Assembly: GCA_947624385.1 (NCBI GenBank)
Contig: CANQJZ010000017.1
Span: forward strand, 1 to 42,520
Length of the DNA stretch: 42,520 nucleotides
From: an uncultured Oscillospiraceae bacterium
GTDB lineage: Bacteria > Bacillota > Clostridia > Oscillospirales > Oscillospiraceae
Direction: 5' to 3'
The position numbers were made by a program, and so were the translations under genes. The notes below the pieces were generated by a model. The model made no database searches. It saw only the letters and a program-made list of their open reading frames with translations, and was not told the origin of the DNA. Below are positions 13,231 to 19,073 of this stretch, one piece after another. Position 1 is the stretch's first letter, and each line of letters begins with the position of its first letter.

Positions 13231-13977
13231 TTATAGATAGATCTCCGTCTCCAAAAACGTCCGGTCCTTGCGGGACTGACCGCCCAGGGCCGTCACCGCG
13301 CCCTTGCCCCGGCCGTGGATGGAGATCACGTCGCCCTGGGATATGGGCGCGTCCACGTGCAGACACTGGACGTAGTTCAATTGCACGGCCCCGGCCCGAA
13401 TGAGCTCCGCCGCCTGGGTCCGGGACAGGCCGAACATGTTCCCCGCCACCGCGTCCAGCCGCAGGCTCTTTACCGTGAACGCGCGTTTTTTGGTTTTTCG
13501 CTCCGGGGCCTGGACCTCCGCCAGGGCGATGGGGACGGTCCTCACCGTGCAGCGGCCGACCTGCGTCAGCTCGTCGGTGAGAAGCTTTTCCACCGTGGGC
13601 AGACAGAAGATGGTGGCCGCGCTGCCGTTGACCCAGAAGTCCCCGATCCACTCCCGGCGGATGCCAAGGCCCAGGGCCGCGCCCATATAGTCCCGGTGGG
13701 TGGGTTCGCCGAAAAAGGCGGTGACGCGCAGGGCGCGGATGTGTTCGGACGGGTCGAAGTCAGCGTCGGTCATGTAGTAGGGCAGGAAGAAGGCGCACTT
13801 GCGCTCGCAGGCGGCGCTGCCGCCGTTTAAGTGCAGCGTCACGTCCCCGAGACGTTTCGCCCAGGCGGCGACCTCCGCCTGTTCCGGCATGGTGAGAAAG
13901 CCGGTGGCGGTCACAAGGCTGCTGCGCTCACACCGGGCGGAGAGCTCTTCTATGCGCTTTTCCAGGGCTTTGTCCAT
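13231..13977 (-). CDS. ylmH: YlmH-type S4-domain RNA-binding protein
   Basis: A 248-residue protein with the YlmH layout: an amino-terminal RNA-binding fold (about 1-170) and a carboxyl S4 domain (about 175-235: SLRLDAVAGNMFGLSRTQAA, ELIRAGAVQLNY, ISQGDVISIHGRGKG). In Bacillus this protein binds stalled 50S-peptidyl-tRNA complexes and can support ribosome-associated quality control in place of RqcP. In most Firmicutes it sits in the division/DivIVA cluster; here it follows the HExxH protein by 6 bp, at the end of the string that contains the GTPase-nuclease fusion. The ribosome site is weak, so coupling to the gene before it is likely. Confidence 0.85.
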   Translation of the reverse strand: MDKALEKRIEELSARCERSSLVTATGFLTMPEQAEVAAWAKRLGDVTLHLNGGSAACERKCAFFLPYYMTDADFDPSEHIRALRVTAFFGEPTHRDYMGAALGLGIRREWIGDFWVNGSAATIFCLPTVEKLLTDELTQVGRCTVRTVPIALAEVQAPERKTKKRAFTVKSLRLDAVAGNMFGLSRTQAAELIRAGAVQLNYVQCLHVDAPISQGDVISIHGRGKGAVTALGGQSRKDRTFLETEIYL

Positions 13978-13983
13978 GATGTT

Positions 13984-14841
13984 TCACAGTTGGGTCATAA
14001 ATTGATCGTATAGCCGTCGCACGTCCCCGATGTCGAAGCGCAGGATGTCGTCGAACGGGTATAAGGTCAGGATATACCGCACGAACCGGCAGCCCAGATA
14101 ATAGCCCACATCGGCGTGGTCCCGGTAGTACACCCAATCGCCGAACCAGCGCTGACCGGCGCAGGTCACGGTGTCCAGGTCCCGGCGGAAATCCGCCTTC
14201 ATATCGGCAAAATGCCCGTCGCACCAGGCTTTCCAGCCGTTTTTGTCCTGGTGGTAGTATCCGGCGTCGTCCGCCAGCCGCTGCTCAAAAACCATGGCGA
14301 CGCCCTCGGTGAAAAGCTGCCACAGGAGCCGGTCGGCGGCGCGGTCAAAAGCGCGCTTCAATACGCCGTGCTGCGCCTGATAGACGTGGCCCAGCTCATG
14401 CCAGATGAGGCCGCGCATATCGTCAGGGCCGCACCAGTTCAGTTCCACGATCTTCTCCAGCCCCAGCAGTACGACCGTTCGCCCGTGCAGGGACGTGACC
14501 CAGCCCGCGCCGTTGCACAGGCCAAGGTAGAAATAGACGTCCACATCCACGCTCCTGCCGAATTTATCCCGGATGGTCCGGTCCAGTCCGTCCGTGACGC
14601 CGAGAAAGCTGTCGTGGGCGGCACGGCAGGAGTCCGCTTTTTCCGGCAGGGCGTTCAAAACGGGAAGAAAATCCCTCTCCCAGGCGACGCCGCCGGTGGC
14701 CTGTATTTCCTGCGCGTCCGCTTCCAGCAGCGGCCGCAGACCGGGGATGGCGGCGTCGATATAGGCCCGCCAGCGGTCAGGGGAGAACGCGCCGTTTGCA
14801 AAGGCGGTCGGTATATTCGGATATGTGTCGATGATGCGCAT
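13984..14841 (-). CDS. putative zinc metallopeptidase-like protein (HExxH)
   Basis: A 285-residue protein with a gluzincin-like site: WHELGHVYQ (His148, Glu149, His152) and a downstream TEG (Glu179) as possible third ligand. It has no signal peptide. The family is not recognised with certainty; DUF2268-like predicted proteases are the nearest idea. The ATG at 14841 (MRIIDTYPNI) has no ribosome site. A strong GGAGG at 14926-14930 instead serves ATG 14917, which is one base out of frame, or TTG 14913, which is in frame at 12-base spacing. The true start, or a small frameshift, is therefore unresolved. The gene lies between a palindromic repeat element and ylmH. Confidence 0.6.
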   Translation of the reverse strand: MRIIDTYPNIPTAFANGAFSPDRWRAYIDAAIPGLRPLLEADAQEIQATGGVAWERDFLPVLNALPEKADSCRAAHDSFLGVTDGLDRTIRDKFGRSVDVDVYFYLGLCNGAGWVTSLHGRTVVLLGLEKIVELNWCGPDDMRGLIWHELGHVYQAQHGVLKRAFDRAADRLLWQLFTEGVAMVFEQRLADDAGYYHQDKNGWKAWCDGHFADMKADFRRDLDTVTCAGQRWFGDWVYYRDHADVGYYLGCRFVRYILTLYPFDDILRFDIGDVRRLYDQFMTQL

Positions 14842-14954
14842 ATCGGTAAGGTCGGTCACAGCTTTTTGATCGGGTGGCGGATGACAGTTTTCCGCATTCT
14901 TTTTTGAAATCAAACATGGAAGGAACCTCCAAAAAACTAAAAGGTTTAGAATAT

Positions 14955-15065
14955 GGCCCCCTCTGACGAGGGGGCTGTCAGCGCCTTTGGCGCTGACTGG
15001 GGGAGAGATATCTCTCCCTCCGTCTCGCCCTGACGGGCGAGCCACCTCCCTCGTCAGAGGGAGGC
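14955..15065. repeat. MITE-like palindromic repeat element
   Basis: About 110 bases made of five adjoining hairpins: CCCCCTC/GAGGGGG, GTCAGCGCC/GGCGCTGAC, GGGAGAGATATCTCTCCC, CTCGCCC/GGGCGAG (3-base loop) and CCTCCCTC/GAGGGAGG. The two ends are also inverted copies of each other (CCCTCTGACGAGGG and CCCTCGTCAGAGGG). It is non-coding and sits in the leftward gene string between the 119-residue membrane protein and the HExxH gene. Similar repeats with a TCAGCG...CGCTGA core are common between genes in Oscillospiraceae; this is recalled, not searched. Confidence 0.8.
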
Positions 15066-15082
15066 ATTTATAGCGGATCAGT

Positions 15083-15663: not shown

Positions 15664-18219
15664 TCAAAACTGCGAGCGCTTCACGGCCTGGGCGATCTGG
15701 TCCAGGACCCAATCGACCTCGGACTTGAACTCGCCGGAGGACGTGCGCAGCACCCCGGAGCGGAAGGCTCCAAGCTGGACAAGCCGGTCGGAGGTGACGA
15801 CCCGGACCGTCTCGTTCTTGCCTATCTCGTCCACCAGGCGCTCGATGTACATGTCCGCCGTCTCGCCCTCTTTTGTGTACGCCACGCGGACGTTGGCCCG
15901 GCTGTCCCGGCTGCCGGCGCCGCCGGGGACCTTGTAGGCGTCAAAGACGACAGCCAGGTCGCACTTGGTGTAGCCCTGGTAGTTGGCCAGGATGTCTAAA
16001 AGCTTGTCCCGGGCCATATCCAGCCCCTGGGCGGCCAGGGCTTTCAACTCGTCCCAGGCGAAGATCACATTGTACCCGTCCACGATGATGTGCTCTTTCG
16101 TTTTGCGGGCTTGCATTTGGATTCCCACGGCGCTGTTGATCTGGGGGGCGGCGTACTGTTTGCGGCGGATGGGGCCGAACTCCCGGACCATGATGGCCTC
16201 CAGCTCTTTTTCGTCGATGTCCAGATTTTGCCGCCGGAGCTTTGGTTCGGGGCTGTCCATGGGCGCGTCCGATTTTTTGAGGGCGCTTTCCAGGTGCATG
16301 TACTCGGGGACCTTGTTCCACTTCACGGTGAAGCCGCCGCCGTGGGCGCAAAAGACGCTGTCCGGGGTGTTTTCCAGGTCCGCCTCCGGGTCGTAGTCCA
16401 GCGCGGCGATGACGGCCTCGGCGTCGTGACAGGGCCGACAGCCGTCCACCCGACAGGAAAACCGGCCGCGGCCGCCGGTGTACGCCGCCACCTGCGCGGC
16501 GTAATCGCCCATGGCGGAAACGGGGGCGTGGCCCTCCAGAACGGTAAATTCCCCCTGGGTAACGGGACTTTCATGTACGCCGCCCATGGCCCGCACGTCC
16601 GTGATGGCCCGGCCGATCTGGGCGGTGGGGACCTCCAAATGGAAGGCGTAGTAGGGCTCTAAAAGCACGCTTTTGGCCTGCATGAGCCCTTGGCGCACGG
16701 CGCGATACGTCGCCTGGCGGAAGTCCCCGCCCTCGGTGTGCTTCAGGTGGGCCCGGCCGGTGAGCAGCGTGATCTTCACGTCCGTCAGGGGCGAGCCGGT
16801 GAGCACGCCAAGGTGCTGTTTTTCCTCCAAATGGGTCAGGATAAGCCGCTGCCAGTTCCGGTCCAGCACGTCCTCGGAACAGACCGTGTCCACCTGGATA
16901 CCGCTGCCGGGTTCGCCGGGTTCTAAGAGCAGGTGTACCTCCGCGTAATGGCGCAGGGGCTCAAAGTGGCCCACGCCCTCCACCGCGTTTTCAATGGTCT
17001 CCCGGTACAGGACCCGGCCCGCGTCGATGTCCACGTCCACGTCGAACCGGTCCTTGACGAGGCTTTTCAAAATTTCGATCTGCACCGCGCCCATGAGCTG
17101 CACGTGTATCTCCCCCAGACCCTCCTGCCAGAGGATGTGCAGCTGGGGCTCTTCCTTCTCCAGCATTTTCAGCTTGGGCAGCATGGTCTGGGGGTCCGTG
17201 CCTTTTGGCAGGACGATGCGGTAGCCCATGGCGGGAATTAAATACGGCGCGCCGCCGTCCGGCTCCGCTCCAAGGCCCTGGCCGGGCCAGGTGGCGGAAA
17301 GGCCCGTCACGGCGCAGACAGTGCCCGCCGGGACAGTGTCGGCGGCGTCGAACTTGACACCGGAGTAGAGCCGTATCTGGCCGATCTTTTCCTCCAGGGG
17401 TTCAGAGCCGTTCAGAGGCAGATAACGCACCGGCATGCGCACGGATAATGCGCCGCCGGTGATCTTCATATAGGTGAGGCGCTCGCCCCGGCTGTCCCGG
17501 CCGATCTTATAGACCCGTGCGGCAAAGGGCGCGGCGGGCCAGGCGGGGGAGAGGGTATATTTGTCCAAGGCGGCGAGAAAGGCCTCCACGCCGTCCAGCT
17601 TTAAGCCAGAGCCGAAAAAGCAGGGGAAAAGCTTCCTCTGTCGGATGAGCCGGGCCGCGTCCGCGTCAGATACAGCGCCGGTCTCCATATAGGCGTCCAG
17701 GGCCGCCTCGTCCAGCAGGGCCACCTGCTCGTCCCGGTCGTCAGCCGGGGCGGAAAAGTCCACGCAGGCGTCCCCCAGACGGGCCCGGATATCGGCCAGC
17801 AGAGCGGCCTTGTCCGTGCCGGAGACGTCCATCTTGGTGACGAACAGGAACGTGGGGATGTTGTACCGGGCCAGAAGGCCCCAGAGGGTCCGGGTGTGGG
17901 CCTGAACGCCGTCCGTGCCGCTTATGACCAGAATGGCGTAGTCCAGCACCTGCAGCACCCGCTCCGCCTCCGGGGAGAAGTCCACGTGGCCGGGGGTGTC
18001 CAGCAGCGTAAGCTCTGTATCGCCCAGGGACAATATGGCCTGTTTGGAGAAGATGGTGATGCCACGGGCCCGCTCCAGGTCGTGGGTGTCCAGAAAGGTG
18101 TCCCGGTGGTCCACACGGCCCAGCTTGCGGATACGGCCCGTCAGGTACAGCATGCCCTCGGAGAGGGTGGTCTTGCCCGCGTCCACATGGGCCAATATGC
18201 CGACGGTCAGCTTCTTCAT
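15664..18219 (-). CDS. TetM/EF-G-like ribosomal GTPase fused to NYN (YacP/Rae1-like) nuclease
   Basis: An 851-residue cytoplasmic fusion. Residues 1-640 follow the TetM/EF-G plan: G1 AHVDAGKTT (10-18), switch I with DLERARGITI (47-56), G3 DTPGH (74-78), G4 TKMD (128-131), then domains II-V. The domain IV tip reads HLKHTEGGDFR (491-501), lacking the YSPV loop by which TetM dislodges tetracycline. Cysteines 589, 594, 597 and 624 could bind metal. A linker (about 650-705) leads to an NYN domain (709-845) with IIVDGYNVIF, VVFDAYKVPGG, GETADMYIERLV and VVTSD; Asp714, Asp760, Asp789 and Asp811 are the likely catalytic acids. This domain matches YacP, known in Bacillus as Rae1, an A-site mRNA endonuclease. 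ATG 18219 is chosen because the protein then begins MKKLTVGILAHVDAGKT, and it overlaps the GNAT stop as TGATG. Confidence 0.88.
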   Translation of the reverse strand: MKKLTVGILAHVDAGKTTLSEGMLYLTGRIRKLGRVDHRDTFLDTHDLERARGITIFSKQAILSLGDTELTLLDTPGHVDFSPEAERVLQVLDYAILVISGTDGVQAHTRTLWGLLARYNIPTFLFVTKMDVSGTDKAALLADIRARLGDACVDFSAPADDRDEQVALLDEAALDAYMETGAVSDADAARLIRQRKLFPCFFGSGLKLDGVEAFLAALDKYTLSPAWPAAPFAARVYKIGRDSRGERLTYMKITGGALSVRMPVRYLPLNGSEPLEEKIGQIRLYSGVKFDAADTVPAGTVCAVTGLSATWPGQGLGAEPDGGAPYLIPAMGYRIVLPKGTDPQTMLPKLKMLEKEEPQLHILWQEGLGEIHVQLMGAVQIEILKSLVKDRFDVDVDIDAGRVLYRETIENAVEGVGHFEPLRHYAEVHLLLEPGEPGSGIQVDTVCSEDVLDRNWQRLILTHLEEKQHLGVLTGSPLTDVKITLLTGRAHLKHTEGGDFRQATYRAVRQGLMQAKSVLLEPYYAFHLEVPTAQIGRAITDVRAMGGVHESPVTQGEFTVLEGHAPVSAMGDYAAQVAAYTGGRGRFSCRVDGCRPCHDAEAVIAALDYDPEADLENTPDSVFCAHGGGFTVKWNKVPEYMHLESALKKSDAPMDSPEPKLRRQNLDIDEKELEAIMVREFGPIRRKQYAAPQINSAVGIQMQARKTKEHIIVDGYNVIFAWDELKALAAQGLDMARDKLLDILANYQGYTKCDLAVVFDAYKVPGGAGSRDSRANVRVAYTKEGETADMYIERLVDEIGKNETVRVVTSDRLVQLGAFRSGVLRTSSGEFKSEVDWVLDQIAQAVKRSQF

Positions 18220-19073
18220 CAGTCGAAGGCAAAGCCCCACCACAGCTCGTCAGGCAGAGGCTCGCGCACGTCGGGACCAAGTGTGCCCAGCACGAATGGC
18301 CGCGCCTGGCCGGGGCCGGGGTAGAAAAGGGGCGTGCGGACCTCATAGCGCTCCGCCGGGAAACGGGCCGCCACCGAGGCCAGAACGTCGGCCCAGTCGC
18401 CCTCCGGGGCCAGAAGCTCCAGGACACGGCACGTGTCCCCGTCCAGCTCCACGGCGGCGATGTCCCCGTTCAGGTCCAGCATGCTGCCGCCAAAGCGGCG
18501 CATGTGCTGCCTTTCCAGGCTGAGAAGCTCCGGGCCCATGACGGCGTAGGGACGGCCGCGGAGCAGTGCCTTACGGCGCAGATAATATTCCCCGGCGGAG
18601 ATGGGCGCGGCCGCCTCACGGGGCACGCCGGTGATCTCGGCGGGACCCAGAAACGCCTCCCGGATATAGCTGACAGGCACGCAGCCGGCGGCCTTTTCAT
18701 AAAAGGCGTACATGGCCTGCTCCCCCGGCATGACGCACACCGCGTGGGACCACTTGCCGGCCTCGGCCACGCAGGCTTTGTACACCGCCGTGCCGATGCC
18801 CCGGCCCCGGTATGCGCTGTCCGTGGACAGGGCGTAGGTGTACGCCGTGGTCAGGGACTGGCCGGAGGGCGGGAACATCAGCGGCCCGTTCATGATGTAC
18901 ATGGCCGAGACGACCTGGCCGTCCGCCTCCGCCACCATGCACCGGTCGGGCTTTAAGAACATGGCGTGGTAGGCGCGTATGTAGTCGTCGCTGTCGGAAA
19001 AACCCTCCCGCCACAGCTCGATCAAACGGGGGCGGTCGGTCTCCCGCCAGGGGCGTATCGTCACGTTATCCAT
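18219..19073 (-). CDS. GNAT family N-acetyltransferase
   Basis: A 284-residue acetyltransferase. The amino half is a GNAT domain beginning VTIRPWRETDRPRLIELW, with acetyl-CoA loop YRGRGIGTAVYKAC (88-101). The carboxyl half (about 145-284) is less conserved and may be a second degenerate domain, as in Eis-like proteins. The substrate is unknown; antibiotics, a ribosomal protein or a small molecule are all possible. It overlaps the DUF2156 gene by 8 bp and the GTPase-nuclease by one base, so the three are translationally coupled. Confidence 0.85.
   Translation of the reverse strand: MDNVTIRPWRETDRPRLIELWREGFSDSDDYIRAYHAMFLKPDRCMVAEADGQVVSAMYIMNGPLMFPPSGQSLTTAYTYALSTDSAYRGRGIGTAVYKACVAEAGKWSHAVCVMPGEQAMYAFYEKAAGCVPVSYIREAFLGPAEITGVPREAAAPISAGEYYLRRKALLRGRPYAVMGPELLSLERQHMRRFGGSMLDLNGDIAAVELDGDTCRVLELLAPEGDWADVLASVAARFPAERYEVRTPLFYPGPGQARPFVLGTLGPDVREPLPDELWWGFAFD

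Follow-up and report, generated by a model that had tools for sequence, protein, structure and literature searches.

A translational GTPase fused to a Rae1-like nuclease in gut Clostridia

How do bacteria pick stalled ribosomes for cutting? A gene of an uncultured Oscillospiraceae bacterium bears on this question: what would a nuclease resembling Rae1 do on the same chain as a translational GTPase? The gene lies on contig CANQJZ010000017.1, whose 42,520 analyzed nucleotides are hereafter called the window, and occupies positions 15664..18219 of the minus strand (ATG 18217-18219, stop 15664-15666). It encodes an 851-residue protein, hereafter the fusion, in which a translational GTPase is followed by a NYN_YacP nuclease domain. 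Free-standing Rae1 cleaves mRNA in the ribosomal A site (PMC12320835). We find that the fusion is real and conserved, with no assembly error, that it is old and present in many gut Clostridia, and that the evidence, drawn from sequence, makes it a predicted variant of Rae1 that brings its own translational GTPase. The fusion makes a role of the GTPase in cutting directly testable.

An earlier note, made from the letters of the window alone, had proposed a single-chain fusion of GTPase and nuclease at these positions, and both the reading frame and Pfam confirm it, on the minus strand. There the frame is unbroken from the ATG at 18219 to the stop at 15664, while the plus strand over the same interval holds several stops and is not an open frame. 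The ATG overlaps the stop codon of the upstream acetyltransferase gene as TGATG, which leads us to prefer it over an in-frame GTG at 18243. All features given below are likewise on the minus strand.

The first 600 residues form the GTPase half, for which a search against solved structures returned EF-G, TetO and TetM. Its GTP-binding domain spans residues 4-222 (17554..18210; Pfam GTP_EFTU, E 4e-45) and carries the G-motifs A10-H-V-D-A-G-K-T-T18, D74-T-P-G77 and K129-x-D131, whose residues are at least 97% conserved. EF-G domain IV follows at residues 401-516 (16672..17019; EFG_IV, E 7e-18) and domain V at residues 518-599 (16423..16668; EFG_C, E 1e-14). These three domains all score above their Pfam gathering thresholds and place the protein in the EF-G/EF2 superfamily; EFG_III and EF-G_D2, the models of domains III and II, match below theirs. 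The earlier note's G-motifs and EF-G-type domains are thus borne out. Alignments then define a family-specific C-terminal extension at residues 600-645 (16285..16422) with conserved S621, F623, C624, W634 and H642, and a linker at residues 646-709 (16093..16284) with a conserved stretch at 668-683.

The nuclease occupies residues 711-849 (15673..16089) and matches NYN_YacP (PF05991) at E 5e-44, with a score of 150.6 bits against a gathering score of 24.6. For the last 152 residues, the sole match among solved structures is B. subtilis YacP, which is Rae1 (5mq8/5mq9, E 3e-23), and each of the four acidic residues of the fusion aligns with an aspartate: D714 (16078-16080), D760 (15940-15942), D789 (15853-15855) and D811 (15787-15789). 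The Rae1-like nuclease with four acidic residues that had been read from the sequence is therefore upheld. When fused sequences are set beside free forms, D714 is kept in 60 of 61 fused rows (one gap), the other three aspartates in 61 of 61, and all four in 49 of 49 free forms.

Could the join be an artefact, two genes brought together through a frameshift or an assembly error? A scan of named genomes yielded 442 encoding stretches, and all 80 loci kept from these match the fusion nearly end to end. Among 194 loci, a set that includes the window itself (L001) and several genomes twice, 140 hold both halves in a single frame. Conservation was counted over 118 of these 140 rows, those with a coverage of 90% or more; the other 22 were omitted as partial. 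D714, D760, D789 and D811 do not vary in any of the 118 and E793 is kept in 115, so that the loss of acidic residues named in the earlier note as a refuting outcome was sought and not found. Across 12 close relatives, purifying selection acts on both halves and is strongest on the NYN domain (dN 0.003-0.106, with dS 0.187-0.729), while dN is 0.015-0.133 in the GTPase and 0.065-0.37 in the linker. We also looked for a frameshift or an assembly error, and nothing in the window speaks for one; in two relatives, L080 and L185 (G360), the GTPase part is split over two frames, which may reflect sequence error or decay. With the identical join present in independent assemblies and selection running through both domains, we reject an artefact, whose probability we regard as practically nil.

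The distribution of fused and free nucleases bears on whether the fusion stands in for Rae1. Within the order, NYN_YacP is matched in 43 of 147 genomes, exactly once in each. In 42 of the 43, the match lies in a frame of fused size (at least 833 amino acids), and the last (G107, 160 amino acids) is cut by the contig end. Checked by sequence, this size rule held for 39 of 40 stretches, which contain both halves in one frame; the other is again G107. Across the class, 189 of 291 genomes have a match, 188 of them above the cut-off, and in none of the 188 do fused and free forms occur together. Only G276, a genome 61% complete, has two matches above the cut-off, and both are of fused size (L034, L191); second matches in G279, G341 and G380 reach just 21 bits. 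Frame size classed 149 of the 188 genomes, with the remaining 39 outside this classing: 88 carry the fused form and 56 the free form, while 5 are unclear (G321, G196, G354, G282, G363). Independence would predict about 17 double carriers among the 149, and we observed none. In a sample of the phylum, 155 of 299 genomes have a match, 18 of the listed frames are of fused size, and the sole genome with two matches (G642) has two free forms. Both states are found within families f46, f47, f51 and f52, and genera g106 and g111 each include fused and free species. Since none of the 188 genomes carries both forms, the fusion probably replaces free Rae1.

The two forms also differ in location. In B. 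subtilis, rae1 shares a transcript with yacO, the rlmB homolog (PMC6613710). Free forms adjoin rlmB in 44 of 50 loci, the others being L013, L021, L022, L025, L027 and L033, the last of which is cut by a contig end. RlmB was seen at 0 of 10 fused loci, a weak count since these loci span only 1.5 kb around the NYN part. The genome of the window, which is 93% complete, has one NYN_YacP match in all, and its rlmB lies on another contig with no yacP beside it. At that locus (L244, contig C52), rlmB is followed by a 769-residue membrane-like frame and then by an EF-G-like frame (MKNIRNIALLGHGGNGKTS...).

Where did the fusion come from? We built quick trees of each half, with SH-aLRT support only. 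In the GTPase tree, all 37 fused GTPases in the sample group together (support 100), and outside their clade stand Tet(M/O/W), 4 Tet-like proteins and 8 relatives without the fusion. In the NYN tree, 48 free forms lie on one side of a branch with support 96, a count that excludes the free form L025 (G381), which sits within the fused group. That tree requires two switches between the fused and the free state. Holding the 55 fused rows together was not rejected (p-AU 0.65) and gave a better likelihood than the free search. This tree dropped eight rows (two truncated, duplicates, one long branch and one near-copy of the window); an earlier NYN tree had put the fused rows L168, L177 and L185 beside free forms with weak support. 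The simplest reading of the sampled trees is a single fusion event. The unfused relatives end with the C-terminal extension, and the NYN domain was added after it. The distance from H642 to D714 has a median of 71 residues over 140 rows (range 66-122, quartiles 70 and 80).

Proteins of this kind have been seen before under other names. The earlier note supposed that similar fusions were already in databases, which is true: the NCBI name of the Monoglobus homolog, 52% identical, is "translation factor GTPase family protein". They are also in print. Atkinson 2015 (PMC4342817) reports that "Tet" proteins of ten clostridial species gained an NYN RNase domain resembling YacP, and proposes that RNase activity forms part of a resistance mechanism. 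We found no earlier mention, and among the open-access matches listed, a set that excludes the main Rae1 papers, we recognized no other that describes the fusion. What is new here is that the GTPase, judged by its domain-IV loops and score, is not of the Tet type and keeps the tip histidine, that fused and free forms exclude each other in the genomes sampled, and that a YlmH-like gene is linked to the fusion in one clade.

Is the fusion, as that suggestion would have it, a protein that protects the ribosome from tetracycline or another A-site drug and has acquired RNase activity? Its GTPase half has the domain order of TetM, is about 28-29% identical to Tet(M)/Tet(O)/Tet(W) (28% to Tet(M)) and scores 386 bits with the NCBIfam model tet_protect. 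However, the curated cut-off of that model is 775 bits, a value that the positive controls exceed, Tet(M) with 879 and Tet(O) with 851. The EF-G model TIGR00484 gives 260.5 bits, under its cut-off of 659.4. Loops I and III of domain IV also differ from those of Tet(M/O/W). Tet(M), Tet(O) and Tet(W) carry the loops PNPFWAS and YYSPVSTPADFR, whereas nearly all aligned members of the fusion family, fused and unfused, have PL(R/K/G)HYxE and HxKHTxGGDFR. In the window, loop III is GRAHLKHTEGGDFR (residues 488-501; 16717..16758). No fixed position of this loop is kept in fewer than 116 of 118 rows; the exceptions to the loop patterns are L209 and L211, L223 and L224 (serine for the first histidine), the deviant L176 and L181 (glutamine for lysine). 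Where loop III of the Tet proteins reads YSPVST, the fusion has AHLKHTEGGD, and the Pro-509 region is absent. H491, present in 117 of 118 rows, lines up with the histidine at the tip of EF-G (H572 in S. aureus), a site at which Tet proteins have tyrosine. We take this histidine to be the equivalent of E. coli H583, a residue of translocation. In TetM, Pro-509 sits in the drug site, where its role has been described (PMC8161019), and both loop III and the C-terminal extension have been described as important (PMC8161019, PMC4750697). By its domain-IV loops and its score, then, the GTPase half would not be a Tet-type protection protein, and the fusion clade stands apart from the Tet proteins. 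We reject tetracycline protection as the main reading on the loops and score and consider drug protection in general very unlikely. Further Tet-like GTPases of the order (L228-L234) carry the loops PKPCWA and HxxHTHPxDF, unlike those of Tet(M/O/W) and unlike those of the fusion.

The surroundings of the gene offer a putative partner in ribosome quality control. Downstream of the fusion lies a YlmH-like gene (13231..13977), with a YlmH_RBD match of 37.7 bits (cut-off 23) and an S4 match of 21.8 bits, just below its 22.8. In relatives of the window's clade, such a gene is found downstream on the same strand in 55 of 80. Judged by start codons, YlmH begins in all 55 either past the end of the fusion frame or no more than 88 nt ahead of that end; it lies within 60 nt of that end in 38 (overlaps included) and within 300 nt in 43. 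Among the 25 relatives without YlmH, 19 have more than 1.8 kb of downstream sequence and 6 have less than 0.6 kb. Genes for tmRNA, for MutS2 and for an RqcH-type NFACT protein are likewise present in the genome of the window. In the window itself, 1.7 kb separates fusion and YlmH, in which lie a frame of 64 codons, a DUF2651-like gene and a third gene that has no Pfam match. The last of these (13984-14853), just upstream of YlmH, is matched by a similar frame in no more than 5 of the 80 relatives and contains HELGH, which we take to resemble a metalloprotease motif. An inverted repeat of the CCTCCCTCTGACGAGGGAGG / CCCCCTCGTCAGAGGGGG type is visible by eye at 14953-15066, between the inserted genes and YlmH.

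What, then, might the fusion do? We put the chance at about even that it is a ribosome-dependent mRNA endonuclease with its own translational GTPase, doing the job of Rae1. Work at stalled ribosomes is the best inference from these sequences, because no sampled genome has both nuclease forms and because YlmH adjoins the fusion in one clade; of the role at stalled or drug-bound ribosomes that the earlier note proposed, the stalled ribosome is supported and TetM-like drug protection is not. Both mRNA cleavage and its gating by GTP are predicted activities. EF-G-type factors insert domain IV into the decoding A site. In the sequence of events that we envisage, the GTP form would bind a stalled ribosome at its factor site, and the tip of domain IV would probe or clear the decoding A site. 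Domain IV would then withdraw, probably upon GTP hydrolysis, and the tethered NYN domain would enter and cut the A-site mRNA like Bacillus Rae1. The ribosome, left on a truncated message, could pass to tmRNA and/or to splitting and ribosome-associated quality control (RQC), where YlmH acts. This proposal of a GTP-gated A-site nuclease, whose GTPase retreats to let the Rae1 domain cut and which hands the ribosome to quality control with a co-expressed YlmH, is a tentative one and somewhat less likely than not. If true, it would link stall recognition and mRNA cleavage in a single chain, one that has taken the place of free Rae1 in much of Clostridia.

Several observations weigh against a GTPase-driven Rae1. 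Domain IV and the Rae1 domain would be rivals for the A site, so that each would have to wait for the other to leave, a step at which GTP hydrolysis could gate cutting. R825 is invariant in 49 of 49 free forms and kept in only 36 of 61 fused ones (the window has it), and the NYN match of the window ends at position 148 of the 166-position profile. Kinship among genomes means that the exclusion counts are not independent trials. NYN_YacP of either form is absent from 104 of 147 genomes of the order, and the function is thus dispensable. The YlmH-fusion gene link holds for one clade only: in a broader survey of 80 fusion genomes, with 8 further ones left out, 75 have YlmH, and it adjoins the fusion in 1 of 80, the window's own. 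Finally, an unfused GTPase occurs in only 5 of 30 genomes with free Rae1 (E<=1e-60), and two genomes of the order (G062 and G020) have one with no NYN match at all, so that GTPase and nuclease do not require each other in general. These last counts speak for a passive anchor, in which the NYN domain alone cuts in the A site and the GTPase only raises its concentration at the ribosome or keeps the separate job of its unfused relatives. Free Rae1 works without a fused GTPase, and fused and free forms interchange within families, as such an anchor would allow. On the other hand, one fusion has been kept across many families with its GTPase motifs intact, and the narrow range of linker lengths (quartiles 70-80 residues), together with the conserved stretch, suggests coupling of the two halves. 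On balance we consider a passive anchor somewhat unlikely. We think it more improbable still that the NYN domain cuts some other RNA on the ribosome (rRNA or tRNA), be it in stress, in self-limitation or in the maturation of these RNAs. NYN/PIN nucleases do cleave varied RNAs, and a maturation role was proposed earlier for the NYN domain (quoted in PMC4342817); against this, Rae1 is its nearest relative among solved structures, the domain has apparently been exchanged for Rae1, and PADLOC gave no match.

Other explanations of the locus were tried and set aside. A defense system is one of these, PADLOC having returned no match. A general operon partner is another: ten neighboring proteins (L250-L254, L103) share no common theme, and one is a class-II aminoacyl-tRNA synthetase. 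At one of these loci (L252:993-3992, G301), the gene adjoining the fusion encodes a protein of 1000 residues that combines a TIR domain and repeats of the WD40 type. The GNAT acetyltransferase gene upstream of the fusion (18219..19073), whose end overlaps the fusion start, adjoins it in the closest relatives, 22 of the 80. Two unannotated fecal records labeled "Bacteriophage sp." (MT835563.1 and MT835514.1) contain relatives that cover 98-99% of the query at 54% and 49% identity, and one of the two, as fetched, is marked UNVERIFIED. These records may be bacterial scaffolds; phage origin, for which they were the basis, was set aside as an explanation. For surveys of gut bacteria, the finding has a practical side: fusion genes resemble tetracycline-resistance genes and should not be counted as such on that ground.

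Placed among known systems, the fusion combines features that otherwise occur apart. With Rae1/YacP of B. subtilis (5mq8/5mq9) it shares the NYN domain and all four aligned aspartates. Rae1, however, is a free-standing protein of about 170-180 residues usually encoded beside rlmB, whereas the fusion is joined to a GTPase, lies elsewhere and has a shorter C-terminal end to its NYN domain. Domains I-V follow one another likewise in Tet(M), Tet(O) and Tet(W), which have other domain-IV loops and no nuclease. EF-G has the same domain order and the same tip histidine but lacks both the nuclease and the extension. Closest are the unfused GTPases (L199-L204, L225, L226), 42-49% identical to the fusion, with the same loops and the same C-terminal extension; they stop at the equivalent of residue ~643-645 (...YMHCLK or ...YMHTLR) and have no nuclease. 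The "Tet"-NYN proteins of Atkinson 2015, compared here by their description, have the same architecture as the fusion; in that paper, which is older than the name Rae1, they were named Tet and tied to resistance.

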